Assembly (NCBI RefSeq): GCF_019331795.1
Contig: NZ_JAHPZL010000003.1
Coordinates: 276,467 to 340,466, forward strand
Reading direction: 5' to 3'
Length of the DNA: 64,000 nt
Source: Austwickia sp. TVS 96-490-7B
GTDB lineage: Bacteria; Actinomycetota; Actinomycetes; Actinomycetales; Dermatophilaceae
Shown: in pieces, positions 3,318 to 41,747 of the stretch
Layout: the number at the start of each line of letters is the position of its first letter
Position numbering within the stretch: position 1 is the first letter of the stretch
Made by a program: the position numbers and the translations under genes
Notes under the pieces: model-generated
Seen by the model: only the letters and a program-made list of their open reading frames with translations
The model's database searches: none
What the model was told of the DNA's origin: nothing

Positions 3318-4268
3318 TCACCGCACGATGTCGGTCGTGGTGGGGATCTCCAGTTCGGTGGCGGAGATGTGAGTCAGGTCGCCGTGATGGGTCAGGGCGA
3401 ACTTGGAAGTGCGCAGGCCGTAGCCGATGCCCGCTTTGACGTCGCCGTCGAGATAGCCGTGCAGGCAGCCAGCAACGAAGGAATCGCCTGCGCCAGGTCG
3501 GTCGACTACGGGAACCTGCTGGACTTCGTAGGTCTGGCAGCCTTGTTCACCGCAGTAGTAGACCCCGGCGGTCGCGTCAGTGGACACCACATGCCTAATC
3601 CCGGTCCACTCCTGCAGACGCCGGTTGACGGTGGGTCCGTCTCCGTCAAGGCCAAACACTTTCGCGCCGTCAGCACGAGAACAAAACAGGATGGAAACCT
3701 TGTCCAGCAACGGCTCCAGGACCTCCCGAGCGCGCTGCGGTGACCACAGCAGGCTGCGGTAGTTGACGTCGAGCGCTACCTCGACGCCCCGCCGGGCGGC
3801 TTCGTTGACGGCATGGGTGACGACCTTGGCGGTGTCTTCGGTCAGCGAAGCGGTGATGCCGGTGACAAACAACACCCTGGTGTCCAAGAGGCTGTCCCAG
3901 TCAAAGGTGTCCGGCGTAATCTCCCGGAACTTGGTGTGCAACCGGTCATAGGTGACTCGGGCAGGCATGGGGCCGTCACCGGGCTCCATGAAGTAGAGCG
4001 CGATCCGCTCGTCGGCAGTCCTGATCACGTGGGACAGGTCGACACCGACGCTGCGGTATTCGGCCATCACGCGGGTGCCCAGGTCAGTGGTGGGAATCAC
4101 CGAGGCCCACGTCGTACGACGAGAGAGCTGGGACAGCAGGCCAGCCACGTTGGCTTCCGACCCGGCTGCGGTCATCCGCAGTCCAGTGGTGGTGCACAGG
4201 CGGTCGCCTTTACCGACGGTCAGCCGGATCTGTCCTTCGCCGAAGGTTGCCAGATCGTAGGTCGTCAT
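3318..4268 (-). CDS. PfkB-family carbohydrate kinase
   Basis: A 316-residue ribokinase/PfkB protein resembling 2-keto-3-deoxygluconate kinases. The N-terminal AAGSEANVA substrate-binding loop and the C-terminal RPGAGDSFVAG motif with the catalytic Asp are intact. ATP-dependent phosphorylation of a sugar or sugar acid at the terminal hydroxyl is expected. The ATG overlaps the stop of the fused epimerase as ATGA, so translation is coupled. In this operon the kinase would supply the phosphate that a PTS adds in the classical ascorbate route; that assignment is inferred from gene context. Confidence 0.88.
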   Translation of the reverse strand: MTTYDLATFGEGQIRLTVGKGDRLCTTTGLRMTAAGSEANVAGLLSQLSRRTTWASVIPTTDLGTRVMAEYRSVGVDLSHVIRTADERIALYFMEPGDGPMPARVTYDRLHTKFREITPDTFDWDSLLDTRVLFVTGITASLTEDTAKVVTHAVNEAARRGVEVALDVNYRSLLWSPQRAREVLEPLLDKVSILFCSRADGAKVFGLDGDGPTVNRRLQEWTGIRHVVSTDATAGVYYCGEQGCQTYEVQQVPVVDRPGAGDSFVAGCLHGYLDGDVKAGIGYGLRTSKFALTHHGDLTHISATELEIPTTTDIVR

Positions 4269-5872
4269 CGACTCACTCCCGTACTCGCCTGAGATGTGCC
4301 GTACCGGTTTTGGTAACGGTCCCAGTTCGCTTCGATCTCCGCCTGATCCAGACGGGTCACTTCTCCTAGCCCTCGTGCGAGGGCGACCGTCGCAGCGACG
4401 TCTTCGACCATCACCGCAGCTTGCAGGGCTTTCCCGATGGTGCGACCGACGGTGAACACCCCGTGCTGCTTCATCACAATCGCCGGAGAACGCCCGATGG
4501 AGCGGACGATCTCCGCGCCGATCTCGTCGCCTCCGATGGAGGCATAAGCTCCGCAAGGAATATCCCCACCGAACTCGTCGGCGATGGCCGTCAGACAGCA
4601 AGGAATCGGCTCGCCCACCGCGGCGAAGGCCGTCGCATACCGCGAATGGGTGTGCACGATGGACATCACGTCTGGGCGCGCCCGATACACGGCCAGATGT
4701 GATGCCGTATCGGAGCTTGGCCCCCGATCCCCCGCCACGATGCGTCCCTCCAGGTCAACGACCACCATGTCCAGTGGTGTCATGTCGTCGTACAGCATGC
4801 CTGAGGGTTTGATGGCGACCAATCCGGTCTCGGGGTCGCGGGCAGAAAGGTTGCCTCCGGTCCAGGCGACCAGTCCGTTCTCCGGGAGGGCCAGGTTGCC
4901 GCGGCACACGTCCTCACGGAGTCGTACGACGGATGCTGGCAGCTCCTGTCCGGCGGGGACCCGACGGGTGGATACGATGATCCCGGCCCGATGCAAGCGT
5001 TCCTGAAGGAACTCACGGGCAGCGACGCAGCGATCCAGGCTGGCCGGATCGTCGTCATTCCACATCTCGATCATGAGACGTCCAGACCACCGTTGAGCAG
5101 CGAGCTCAGCGAAGGCCACGTCCCAATCGACGATGCCTGATCCCATCGGCACCCGGCGTGGCTCGCCGCGACGGACGTCCTTAGCGTGCAAGGCCAACAT
5201 GCGGCCAGCACCGCGCCGTAGTTCAGCGACCATCGGCAGGCCCTGTTCAGCAATATTGCCCAGGTCAGGGTAGAGCGCCAGCCAGGGCGAGCCGATCTCG
5301 TCGACGACGCTCATCGCAGCACTGATCGAGTCAATGTCGTGCCCGTCGACGTTTTCGATGCCCAGGAGGATGCCGCGTCGGGCAGCGTGGGCCGCGCCAC
5401 GCCGCAAGCAGTCGACATAGTGGGCTCGAGCCTGCGGGGTGGCCTCCTCGTAGAAGGCGTAGTAGCCGGCCAGTTGCACCACGGGAACGCCCAGGTCGGC
5501 AGCCAGATCGATGCCCTGCAACAGGATGGTCCTGGCCTGCTCCCGGACAGCGGGGTCAGCGCTTCCCGGGCCAATCTTGCGATGCAGTGACAGGCATAGC
5601 CCACCCACCGTGATCCCAGCGCGGGCCGCAGCAGCCCGCACAGCGGCCCGCTGCGCTCCGGTCCATTCCAGACGTGCAGCCCGCTCCGGGCTTTCGTCGA
5701 TCGAGAGGTCGACAAACGCGAACCCAGCGCGAGCGACCTGGTCAAACAGGTCGTCGTAGGAGCCGGTGAACCGCAGCGCTTTCTCGTAAATACCCAGCTC
5801 CACGCAGGGCTGCCCGTGGGACGCAGCGGTCACATCGAGGTCGTTCTCGACCCGAGTTGCGGTGGCGGTCAT
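4265..5872 (-). CDS. Fused pentulose-5-phosphate 3-epimerase / 4-epimerase (UlaE-UlaF type)
   Basis: One 535-residue chain carries two enzymes normally made separately. Residues about 20-295 are a TIM-barrel of the UlaE/SgaU L-xylulose-5-phosphate 3-epimerase type, with metal ligands visible as Glu173 (GIENVD), Asp203 (YPDLGN), His229 (LHAKD) and Glu269 (IEMWND). Residues about 315-535 are an AraD/UlaF/SgaE L-ribulose-5-phosphate 4-epimerase with TGGNLSAR, PSSDT, the zinc pair in VHTHS (His407, His409) and the third His in KQHG (470). Together they would turn L-xylulose-5-P into D-xylulose-5-P via L-ribulose-5-P. I chose the ATG at 5872 because it overlaps the upstream stop as ATGA, as at the two neighbouring junctions; a GTG lies at 5881. 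Confidence 0.9.
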   Translation of the reverse strand: MTATATRVENDLDVTAASHGQPCVELGIYEKALRFTGSYDDLFDQVARAGFAFVDLSIDESPERAARLEWTGAQRAAVRAAAARAGITVGGLCLSLHRKIGPGSADPAVREQARTILLQGIDLAADLGVPVVQLAGYYAFYEEATPQARAHYVDCLRRGAAHAARRGILLGIENVDGHDIDSISAAMSVVDEIGSPWLALYPDLGNIAEQGLPMVAELRRGAGRMLALHAKDVRRGEPRRVPMGSGIVDWDVAFAELAAQRWSGRLMIEMWNDDDPASLDRCVAAREFLQERLHRAGIIVSTRRVPAGQELPASVVRLREDVCRGNLALPENGLVAWTGGNLSARDPETGLVAIKPSGMLYDDMTPLDMVVVDLEGRIVAGDRGPSSDTASHLAVYRARPDVMSIVHTHSRYATAFAAVGEPIPCCLTAIADEFGGDIPCGAYASIGGDEIGAEIVRSIGRSPAIVMKQHGVFTVGRTIGKALQAAVMVEDVAATVALARGLGEVTRLDQAEIEANWDRYQNRYGTSQASTGVSR

Positions 5873-39322: not shown

Positions 39323-39444
39323 GTCCCGTCGGACGTACAGTGCCCGTCCTGACGGACCCACCATCTCTGCGCTACACGCCGATGAACTGCGAAGATGCGG
39401 AATTCGAGGCGGAGCTGACCGTGGCACTGTACGTCCGACGGGAC
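39323..39444. mobile_element. 122-bp MITE-like element, left copy
   Basis: Perfect 22-bp inverted ends at 39323-39344 and 39423-39444 (outer GTCCCGTCGG..., inner ...ACAGTGCC) enclose 78 bp. A second element of exactly the same length lies at 41626-41747. Together they bracket the three-gene HTH/ABC cassette. No transposase is encoded, so it would depend on one supplied in trans. Confidence 0.75.
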
Positions 39445-39509
39445 GCCCCGACCGTCAGCACCACCAGAGCGCACACCTCACCGGATGCAGCCTCACGGCT
39501 CCACAGCTC

Positions 39510-39746
39510 TCAACCTGCGTTGCCGCTGCCCAGCAACGGGAAGGGCTCCGTGGCAAACACCACCTCCACCGGCACCTCGAAGAACGCTGCGATCCGCAAC
39601 GCCAGATAGAGACTCGGCGCGTATTCCCCGCGTTCGAGGTATCCCACGGTCTGGTAGTGCACTCCCAGCGCCTCAGCTAATGCCCGACGGGACACTCCGC
39701 GTTCGGCGCGCAGCATGGCAATACGGTTGTGCACCTGCTCGGACAT
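39510..39746 (-). CDS. Short XRE-family HTH regulator
   Basis: 78 residues: RIAMLRAERGVSRRALAEALGVHYQTVGYLERGEYAPSLYLALRIA is a complete helix-turn-helix of the small Cro/XRE type, with the usual FEVPVEVVF segment after it. The start ATG lies 6 bases beyond the permease stop, so it is the last gene of the cassette and may act as its own repressor. Such short XRE proteins often accompany ABC-2 exporters in mobile cassettes. Confidence 0.85.
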   Translation of the reverse strand: MSEQVHNRIAMLRAERGVSRRALAEALGVHYQTVGYLERGEYAPSLYLALRIAAFFEVPVEVVFATEPFPLLGSGNAG

Positions 39747-39751
39747 GACGT

Positions 39752-40600
39752 TCAGTATCCCCTGGCCAGAAAGCGATCCCGAGTCGCGGCAAGCACCGAC
39801 GCCGACTGGCGCCGAGATAGGTGACGCAGCGCCCGCGGCGCCAGCGCCAACCCCACGATCGCCCACAGCGCCAAGACCACGAAGGTCAGCTCCAACCGCC
39901 AGCTCTGGGTGACTTCCACAGCGACGATGTCAGCAGGCAGAAGTGTCGTCCGAAGTCCGAGACCCACCCAATAGAAAGGGAGTCCTTGCAGAGGGATCTG
40001 CGCCCACAGCGCCAAGAGACTCAACGGGAAGAACAACCCACTCAGCGCAGCAAGGACATAAATCACCATGGAGAGCATCATCGAACGTAGGGTGCGGCGG
40101 CACCAGGCGCCGATGACTACCGAGACCGGAAAAGTCGCCAACATCCCCAACCCGGTGACCGCGATCATCGTCACCCAGGCCAGAGGGTTCCCTGGCAACA
40201 AGTCGGGCCACGCCAAGGCCATCACCGCCACATAGCAGACCAGTGGCAGCAGGCTGAGTGCTGCGACAACACAGATTTCCCCCCACAGGTGGGCTGCTAA
40301 AGCTCCAGGGATCGATTTGGCCCGCAGCAAGCTGCCGTCCTCTTCAGCTGACGCAAGTTGAACGATCATCGAGTTCATTCCGGTGACCGTGGTGCACACG
40401 GTGATGAGGCCGGGCAGCAGGTAGGCGGCAAGATCGATGGTGGATGACTTCACCGGGGTCCCGGACAGCGTCCACACGGTTATCACCATGACGAAAGGCA
40501 TGACTGCCCAAGCGAGGAGACGCCATCCAGTCAAGTGGCCGCGGAGTTCTATCCTGGCGTGCCGCCAGGTAGCAGCGGCAATAGTGGACGGCGAGGTCAT
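39752..40600 (-). CDS. ABC-2 type transporter permease
   Basis: 282 residues with six hydrophobic segments, of the DrrB/ABC-2 permease class. GTPVKSSTIDLAAYLLPGLITV and EEDGSLLRAKSIPG are typical early blocks of the family. GGAGAT precedes the ATG, which overlaps the natural stop of the ATPase frame (ATGA). The exported compound is unknown; drugs, lipids or a bacteriocin are all possible for this class. Its partner ATPase carries an amber codon. Confidence 0.85.
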   Translation of the reverse strand: MTSPSTIAAATWRHARIELRGHLTGWRLLAWAVMPFVMVITVWTLSGTPVKSSTIDLAAYLLPGLITVCTTVTGMNSMIVQLASAEEDGSLLRAKSIPGALAAHLWGEICVVAALSLLPLVCYVAVMALAWPDLLPGNPLAWVTMIAVTGLGMLATFPVSVVIGAWCRRTLRSMMLSMVIYVLAALSGLFFPLSLLALWAQIPLQGLPFYWVGLGLRTTLLPADIVAVEVTQSWRLELTFVVLALWAIVGLALAPRALRHLSRRQSASVLAATRDRFLARGY

Positions 40601-41547
40601 CGGATCTCCTTGTCGAGTTGAGCCTGGCAGGGAGCAGCGATGAGATCAGAACCTCCGACTGGGACGCGATCCCGCACCCCCGCCACCAGGTCGAGATACA
40701 CCTCTTCGAGGGTGGCGCGACGAATCTCCAGGTCGGAGATCGACGGCCTGCCCTCGGCGAGCAGGTCACGGAGATAGGCGACGGGATCCTCTGTGGTGTG
40801 GATGTGTCGGGTTCCTGCTTCTGACCAGATGATCTCGGCGCGACGAGAAACCTAGCGACGAAGCTGGTCCGGAGATTCATCGGCGACGAAACGGCCGCCG
40901 GTGAGAATGAGAAGACGGTCAGCGATCTTCTCCGCTTCTCCCAGGTCATGGGTGGCCATGAGCACGGTCACCTCGTCGTCGGCAAGTTCGACGATGAGAT
41001 CATGCAATTCGCTGCGGGCTTGAGGGTCGAGGCCATTGGTGGGTTCGGCGAGGAATAGCAGATCTGGGCGGCCGATCAGCCCAATCGCCAGGTCGAGACG
41101 GCGACGCTCACCACCAGAGAGCGAGGAGATCTTCTGACTAACTTTGTCCCGCAACCCAACTCGTGCGAGTAAGTCGTCGATGGGCCAGGGCCGGGGCCTG
41201 TCAGGAGATCCGTACGGACGGTAAAACTCGCCAGCATGGCTGATCAACTCCCCCACCCGCCACAGCGAGTGGTCTCGCCACGACTGTAGGACAACACCGA
41301 CGCGGGAGCGCCAGTCTTCACCCGCGGTCAACGGGGTGGCGCCGAGGACCGTCACCTGTCCTGACGTGGGACGGCGAAAACCTTCCAGGATCTCTAAGAA
41401 CGTCGTCTTACCAGCACCATTGGGTCCCAGGAGGGCGACGATCTCACCGCGCTGGACGGTCAGGTCCACACCACGTAGGACCTGGTGTTCGTCGAAGCTC
41501 ATAGTGATGTCCCGGGCTTTGATAACCGGCACACTATCCACACTCAT
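40597..41547 (-). pseudogene. ABC transporter ATPase interrupted by an in-frame amber codon
   Basis: A DrrA-type ATPase, 316 codons if read through. Walker A (LLGPNGAGKTTFLE), signature (LSGGERRRLDLAIG), Walker B (DLLFLAEPTNGLD; the usual Asp before Glu is Ala) and the H-loop (MATHDLGEAE) are all intact. After DQLRR comes TAG at 40852-40854; the same frame then continues for 84 codons with a normal family C-terminus (SISDLEIRRATLEEVYLDLV) and ends at a TGA overlapping the permease start. A single CAG-to-TAG change explains it. The product truncated at TAG keeps the whole nucleotide-binding domain and may work. The start has no ribosome site but a TACATT box about 10 bases upstream, suggesting a leaderless mRNA. 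Confidence 0.85.
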
Positions 41548-41625
41548 ACTGAAAAATGTAGCAGATCTACTATCAAAGGTAGTGCAGGCATGACATTTCG
41601 CGGTGGCGGCGTCAGCGGACCACTG

Positions 41626-41747
41626 GTCCCTCCGGACGTACAGTGCCCACCCCGATAGCTTCCTCACTCCTGCATTCCAGGCCTGTGACCAGTGAAAACG
41701 CTAAAATTGAAGCTGGGTAAAAAATGGCACTGTAAGTCCGACGGGAC
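41626..41747. mobile_element. 122-bp MITE-like element, right copy
   Basis: Ends at 41626-41647 and 41726-41747 match those of the copy at 39323 with two and one differences. The offset between ends is again exactly 100 bp. The 78-bp interiors agree at a little over half of positions by eye, with most differences C/T or A/G. It sits about 80 bp upstream of the ATPase start. Confidence 0.75.

Follow-up and report, generated by a model that had tools for sequence, protein, structure and literature searches.

The window analysed here, a stretch of 64,000 nucleotides from Austwickia sp. TVS 96-490-7B (positions 276,467 to 340,466 of contig NZ_JAHPZL010000003.1), contains two palindromic elements, E1 and E2, which belong to a family of short palindromes scattered through this genome and those of other actinobacteria. 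Elements of the same kind flank a gene for a protein with an AbiEi-like N-terminus and a predicted C-terminal nuclease domain of the Vsr/DUF559 type. The arms of many scattered elements match the flanks of the nuclease gene in their own genome, and none match those of another genome. In these actinobacteria, the pairing of nuclease and element has the look of a mobile-element system of a kind not yet described. It is a new pairing that works in the manner of a known kind, following the logic of the REPIN-RAYT systems. The whole is best explained, with slightly better than even confidence, by scattered non-autonomous palindromes that are copied by a trans-acting AbiEi-like/Vsr-like nuclease. 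We infer from sequence comparison, rather than observe, that the nuclease spreads the elements.

Association of the elements with a nuclease gene

The association was measured at 70 loci of the nuclease gene within the bacterial family (the 30 that the search returned plus a further 40, of which 14 come from element-bearing genomes). Inverted repeats with a score of at least 14 are concentrated at the gene, with 46 lying within 300 bp of the ends of the 70 genes and seven in all other fetched flanking sequence. At this threshold a repeat accompanies 36/70 nuclease genes and 6/114 comparison genes (Fisher p = 5e-13), the latter being open reading frames (ORFs) of at least 150 aa in 40 element loci from which the known elements had been removed. 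When gene ends are counted over all 117 loci, repeats are found at 78/230 nuclease gene ends and at 6/144 other ORF ends in the same gene loci, where nothing was removed (p = 5e-13). At a looser threshold, 49 of the 70 family genes are accompanied by a palindromic element on at least one side. Where both flanks are occupied (n = 22), an arm is common to the two flanks in 16 cases, compared with 32 of 462 cross-locus pairs (7%).

With the 21 loci of element-bearing genomes set aside, 22/49 genes have a repeat at the stricter threshold, and the arm is shared in 12/17 cases (cross-locus pairs, 16/272). Outside the family, an element was detected at 18/27 loci of a first set and at 16/20 of a second. 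The arm is shared there in 5/6 and 7/7 cases (cross-locus 2/30 and 7/42, respectively), and the stricter threshold leaves a repeat at 23/47 genes. Three loci from one genus of family f22 (L292, L293 and L295, from G359, G285 and G521) have gene-flanking palindromes of ~48-64 bp with shared arms; these are shorter than the palindromes of the Austwickia family, and the nuclease homologues are more distant.

The scattered elements also point to individual genes. Seventy-one were compared with 22 gene loci, leaving out eight gene-flanking elements and three in genomes without an examined gene. At a score of at least 15, 37/71 match a gene flank in their own genome and 0/71 match a flank from another genome. 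In one genome (G108), each of three gene loci is matched by a different set of arms, and one of the matches is due to a single element. At the level of whole genomes, the gene is present in 12/14 element-bearing genomes of the family and in 91/172 others (p = 0.023). Within the genus, the Austwickia genome studied here (G000; 3.63 Mb in 58 contigs) and the congener G003 have both gene and elements, and neither was found in the congeners G001 and G002.

In G000 the nuclease gene lies between elements E3 (G000:C24:483105-483236) and E4, one of which is just upstream of the gene start. Pairs of elements likewise bracket homologous genes in another genus (G015 and G128), and a single element adjoins a homologue in G003 and in G108. 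The pairs that have no nuclease gene between or beside them are E1/E2, a pair in G130 (L178) and a tandem in G008 (L163). In both G003 (L119/L084:3543-3673) and G000 (E3), the nuclease gene has its 3' end overlapped by an element. The arm sequences differ between the two, as though a concerted change of arms had taken place at a single old site.

The partner protein

The N-terminus of the protein is AbiEi-like: it is matched by the AbiEi models of PADLOC, and Pfam AbiEi_4 matches 7/28 homologues. We take this domain to be of the winged-helix type. The C-terminal domain matches MTES_1575 in 25/28 and DUF559 in 22/28 homologues (E<=0.01), and nine residues, including E215, R219, D246 and E257, do not vary across the 28. 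The protein is assigned to the Vsr/DUF559-like PD-(D/E)XK nucleases by the domain match together with the invariant residues of catalytic type, both of which are present; the Austwickia protein itself falls below the Pfam cut-off and has no NCBIfam model at cut-off. A profile search of the PDB returned an endonuclease-like entry, 3hrl, at 1.6e-5 and an entry named 'Mobile intron protein', 3r3p, at 0.0076, followed by three weak Vsr entries at 0.13-0.14. In PMC3710099 the MTES_1575 domain appears as a novel restriction endonuclease of the Vsr type. The neighbours of the Austwickia gene (L046) were read as MutY-like and GNAT proteins, not AbiEii, from names given by eye and not by profile.

The gene was found in 103/186 family genomes (E<=1e-25) and in 104/394 genomes sampled across the class (E<=1e-20). 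A candidate for a conserved copy in G001 and G002 was rejected, the match there being a MutY-like gene. No homologue was found in the plasmids of PLSDB, and a search of viral contigs gave two weak relatives. An 8.6-kb faecal contig deposited as phage (MT837367.1, L304) encodes a 48% homologue at 3909-4712; 73 bp downstream of it there is a palindrome, though a weak one (score 12).

These features could be read as those of a defence nuclease, for which the elements would serve as self-DNA marks or decoys. The PADLOC matches and the patchy distribution of the gene are compatible with this, and the C-terminus of 2/4 proteins weakly matches nuclease regions of Hhe and PDC-S37; however, about ten copies per genome is a low number for the marking of self, and the defence reading is very improbable.

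Census of the family

End searches and a covariance model together identified ten elements in G000, all of 100-132 bp: E1/E2, E3/E4 (~1 kb apart) and six singles. The initial annotation had proposed counting copies of the element ends in the genome and had held that copies confined to the E1/E2 site and kept there in all relatives would speak against mobility; the ten elements are dispersed, and the site is empty of them in two congeners. One of the singles, E10 (L052:9494-9653; G000:C35:147493-147652), carries a further left arm, degraded, 29 bp upstream, and its extra stem is of unusual length. It shares with E1 a position downstream of a tryptophanase-like gene.

A first model built from the G000 elements picked up five elements with different ends, four in G003 and one in another genus, as well as weak further hits in G041 and G042 (E 0.06-0.1). 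Weak model hits obtained without filters at the nuclease locus of G001 and G002 (13.9 bits, E 0.2, and 15.3 bits, E 0.09, respectively) were taken as chance. An oriented alignment of 15 elements revealed outer inverted arms that are specific to subfamilies and a conserved centre near TGACCTGCGGTGATGC. A second covariance model, used with strict filters that miss weak copies, detected the family in 14/186 genomes of the bacterial family (E<=0.01 per genome). The collected set comprises 82 elements from these 14 genomes, with at most 14 copies found per genome.

Beyond G000, the 22-nt element end gave two hits across 57 relatives, each with three mismatches, and the 17-nt end gave five single hits with one mismatch across 185 family genomes; both results were read as chance. 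Viral contigs gave one single hit to the exact element end. In GTDB contigs the 17-nt end was found in 17 stretches, one hit apiece, and these were rejected as apparent chance hits or gene orthologues because inverted partners (up to four mismatches) were scarce and lay at a distance of over 300 bp.

Related pairs of elements also occur in other genomes. In G008, two near-identical elements lie in tandem ~90 bp apart (L163:333-441 and 530-638), a sign of recent local duplication. The pair in G130 (L178:3001-3109 and 5148-5256) is ~2 kb apart and surrounds two genes that resemble, by eye, those of a TetR regulator and a cytochrome P450. In G128, two contigs carry the same element (L143:1501-1609 and L175:3001-3109) with the same 12-bp flanks next to it, probably as part of a larger duplication.

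Architecture and placement of the elements

The conserved centre of the family is TGACCTGCGGTGAT, and the arms are near-constant inside a subfamily and different between subfamilies. In G000 the mean pairwise identity is 87% for the arms, 58% for the centre and 34% for the remaining interior. The arms are therefore being maintained in old copies while the interiors diverge.

Most elements are 98-132 bp long, and their lengths cluster at ~98, 109, 120 and 131 bp, with a mode of 109 bp (23/82). The left half measures 48-49 bp in 41/82 elements and 59-60 bp in 19/82, and the right half 60-62 bp in 45, 72-73 bp in 11 and 50-51 bp in six of the 82. Within a range of 7-16 bp the best period is 11.0 bp (vector length 0.71); no p-value is attached to it because the subfamily boundaries differ and the copies are related. 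The natural reading is that the distance from arm to centre changes in steps of one helical turn, which speaks for a complex of protein with double-stranded DNA.

Among the 82 elements, 69 are intergenic, compared with 23% of random positions, and 33 of the 62 that could be classified lie between convergent genes and nine between divergent genes. Three-base matches between the two flanks occur at 5/82 elements (2.1 expected; reached in 30/500 shuffles). Neither constant terminal bases nor a constant tetranucleotide was seen across the subfamilies of the 82 elements.

The main rival to copying by the nuclease is that the elements are operators, through which the AbiEi-like domain would control its own gene and other genes at the scattered copies while the nuclease acts elsewhere. 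The apparent helical phasing of arms and centre would suit this, as would the occurrence of elements at both ends of the gene, including one just upstream of its start in G000, and the description of AbiEi_4 by Pfam as a transcriptional regulator. However, the preference for convergent over divergent gene pairs is a poor placement for operators, and autoregulation needs no element at the 3' end of a gene. The operator explanation is unlikely.

A role as transcribed RNA hairpins, at mRNA 3' ends or as small RNAs, is improbable. The plus-strand RNAs of E1 and E2 (138 nt including short flanks) fold strongly, as the initial annotation had asked to be checked, with energies far below those of shuffled sequences (z -7.65 and -4.97). 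The bias toward convergent gene pairs and the covariation of arms between subfamilies (both sides changed in 14/21 pairs, 0/500 shuffles) also speak for such hairpins. Arm covariation is nevertheless absent within G000, and no Rfam match at the gathering score was obtained in the window and 16 element and gene loci. Moreover, an unpaired loop would not be expected to give 11-bp steps, and the arms recur at unrelated sites, where they often equal the arm of the nuclease gene. The suggestion that E1 and E2 are RNA elements is weakened by these results, the length steps of about one helical turn included. Identity with a tRNA or an Rfam RNA was rejected, none having been found.

E1, E2 and the genes between them

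The features of the window pair and of the partner gene are listed in Table 1. The initial description of the pair was right: each 122-bp element has 22-nt arms that start 100 nt apart and enclose an interior of 78 nt. The arms of E1 are perfectly complementary and those of E2 are 86% complementary. The interiors are related, with 41/78 positions identical (shuffle mean 19.6, standard deviation 3.8; matched in 0/10,000 shuffles) and, as had been noted, most of the 37 differences being transitions (24, with 13 transversions). Among the ten elements of G000, E2 is the closest relative of E1 (54% interior identity).

Table 1. Coordinates of E1, E2 and the genes that they bracket (positions in the window), and of the partner nuclease gene.
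Feature	Position	Strand	Remarks
E1, 122 bp	39323..39444	+	Belongs to dispersed palindromic family
E1 left arm, GTCCCGTCGGACGTACAGTGCC	39323..39344	+	
E1 copy of conserved centre	39383..39400	+	Consensus across family TGACCTGCGGTGATGC; from alignment, position counted by eye
E1 right arm	39423..39444	+	
HTH_3 regulator of bracketed unit, 78 aa	39510..39746	-	ATG start picked by eye
ABC-2 type permease of bracketed unit	39752..40600	-	
ABC ATPase of bracketed unit	40852..41547	-	Stops at in-frame TAG 40852-40854
E2, 122 bp	41626..41747	+	Oriented like E1
E2 left arm	41626..41647	+	2 differences vs E1
E2 copy of conserved centre	41686..41703	+	From alignment, position counted by eye
E2 right arm	41726..41747	+	1 difference vs E1
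Own nuclease gene	G000:C24:483213-484196		~167 kb from E1/E2; between E3 and E4

The elements do bracket a three-gene helix-turn-helix (HTH)/ATP-binding cassette (ABC) export unit, whose minus-strand products match the profiles HTH_3, ABC2_membrane_3 and ABC_tran. The reading frame of the ABC ATPase reopens after its TAG, from 40851 to ~40601, and this tail has its match in the corresponding region of the homologous ATPase of G001 (L085).

Between the flanking tryptophanase-like gene and the aldo/keto reductase gene lie 2,564 bp in G000, 162 bp in G001 and ~152 bp in G002. The cassette, E1 and E2 are therefore absent from this site in the two congeners. Empty sites in relatives had been suggested as a check; the intergenic DNA of G001 and G002 is too diverged to align and gives no base-exact junction. 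The congener G001 carries a homologous unit at a different site (identity 88% for the HTH protein, 63% for the ABC protein and 35% for the permease). A palindrome was looked for beside it and not found.

The same data bear on the proposal that the HTH/ABC unit was moved en bloc by E1 and E2 as a transposase-less composite. The repeated ends and the absence of the cassette from the site in G001 and G002 agree with that proposal, and nothing shows that the pair mobilises the cassette. The two elements are in direct orientation and are each other's nearest relatives in G000, chance alone would rarely place two elements within 2.3 kb (0.035 expected for 8 elements), and the G130 pair likewise brackets other genes. 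However, the outer flanks of E1 and E2 (...CTGT and ACCC...) are without a direct repeat, the G001 unit lies elsewhere without palindromes, and three other pairs (E3/E4 and those of G015 and G128) bracket the nuclease gene instead. A composite is quite improbable. Nor did the autonomous insertion sequence with these ends that had been suggested come to light: end and model searches of G000, which did not include one for DDE transposases, gave the ten short elements and none longer between two such ends. E1 and E2 are most likely old scattered, non-autonomous copies in the palindromic family, and probably arose by local duplication of a single element.

Possible mechanism of element copying

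In the most likely mechanism, the protein would bind both arms as double-stranded DNA, phased through the centre, which would hold or bend the complex of arms and protein. The nuclease domain would then cut and start the copying of the element into mainly intergenic sites during repair. Copying would be rare enough that the copies are old.

A number of observations weigh against copying by the nuclease. Neither movement nor a single element with a clean empty site was seen, the interiors are old, and none of the 82 elements has a target duplication of at least 4 bp. The inverted-repeat thresholds were picked while looking, and no element was detected at 21/70 family genes and 13/47 others. At a score of 15, none of the examined gene loci is matched by 34/71 scattered elements, which include the TCGG subfamily in G003 and the CACCG subfamily in G008. 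Two genomes have elements and no gene: G141, a single contig, has two elements and no gene at E<=1e-25, and G151, which is 75% complete, has one element. About two of the model hits at E<=0.01 over 186 genomes may be chance, and the hit in G014 looks poor. The conserved centre belonged to the model that collected the elements and is not established outside this set, since 20 motif-bearing repeats were found in 30 loci and 11 on reversed sequences. Finally, arms are shared in 12/14 pairs of proteins with 70-90% identity and in 38/1,573 pairs with less than 50%, and the likeness of arms at like proteins may reflect common descent of the flanks and nothing more.

Comparison with known systems

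In REPIN-RAYT systems, a gene is flanked by palindromic repeats of which copies of the same sequence are scattered in the genome; the repeats form inverted pairs with a drifting spacer and are mostly extragenic, often with convergent or unidirectional neighbours (PMC3116915, PMC3733652). The nuclease and its elements share with these systems a dedicated gene flanked by genome-scattered repeats, though the gene family is different, inverted pairs whose spacer drifts, and an intergenic bias to convergent sites. They differ in that the enzyme is Vsr/DUF559-like and not a Y1 tyrosine transposase, and in that the subfamilies lack a constant GTAG tag. The elements also have a conserved centre and one-turn length steps, and were found in up to 14 copies per genome, not hundreds. 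A Y1 transposase or RAYT was rejected as a candidate, as a PF01797 search of G000 gave 0 matches (control genomes were positive in 5/14). The logic of REPIN-RAYT is resembled, but the enzyme and the element are unrelated to it.

TIRtrons consist of a tyrosine transposase gene with a long inverted repeat on either side (PMC3733652). They are comparable in having a gene between inverted repeats, some of which are repeated in the genome; the enzyme here is unrelated, and each flank can be a complete palindromic element. The known Vsr-like nucleases, including 3r3p, resemble the partner protein in the profile of the C-terminal domain and its invariant acidic residues, whereas here this domain is fused to an AbiEi-like N-terminus and associated with palindromic elements. 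The N-terminus resembles AbiEi of the AbiE toxin-antitoxin systems, but it is fused to a nuclease domain, and by eye the neighbours of the G000 gene do not look like AbiEii.

Miniature inverted-repeat transposable elements (MITEs) such as the Correia elements are ~100-150 bp long and intergenic, with inverted ends and an internal conserved site. Unlike these, the elements described here have no target duplication and no constant terminal bases, and their arms vary between subfamilies while the centre is common.

No report of a pairing of this nuclease with palindromes, and no described role for this type of nuclease gene, was found in the open-access literature, which leaves subscription papers and preprints outside the search. 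A broader proposal is tentative and falls a little short of even confidence: judged from sequence, the elements and nucleases may form a new selfish or domesticated class in several actinobacterial families, with a private palindrome code for each paralogue, a phased arm-centre-arm complex and copies of ~100 bp.

Through the pairing, a candidate DNA target for these frequent genes can be taken directly from each genome sequence, so that protein and site are open to joint testing. If the nuclease does maintain the elements, a dedicated nuclease would keep a palindromic repeat family by means of a second enzyme type, unrelated to the first, as a nuclease counterpart of REPIN-RAYT. The genes and their elements would also provide a natural series of protein-DNA specificity pairs.

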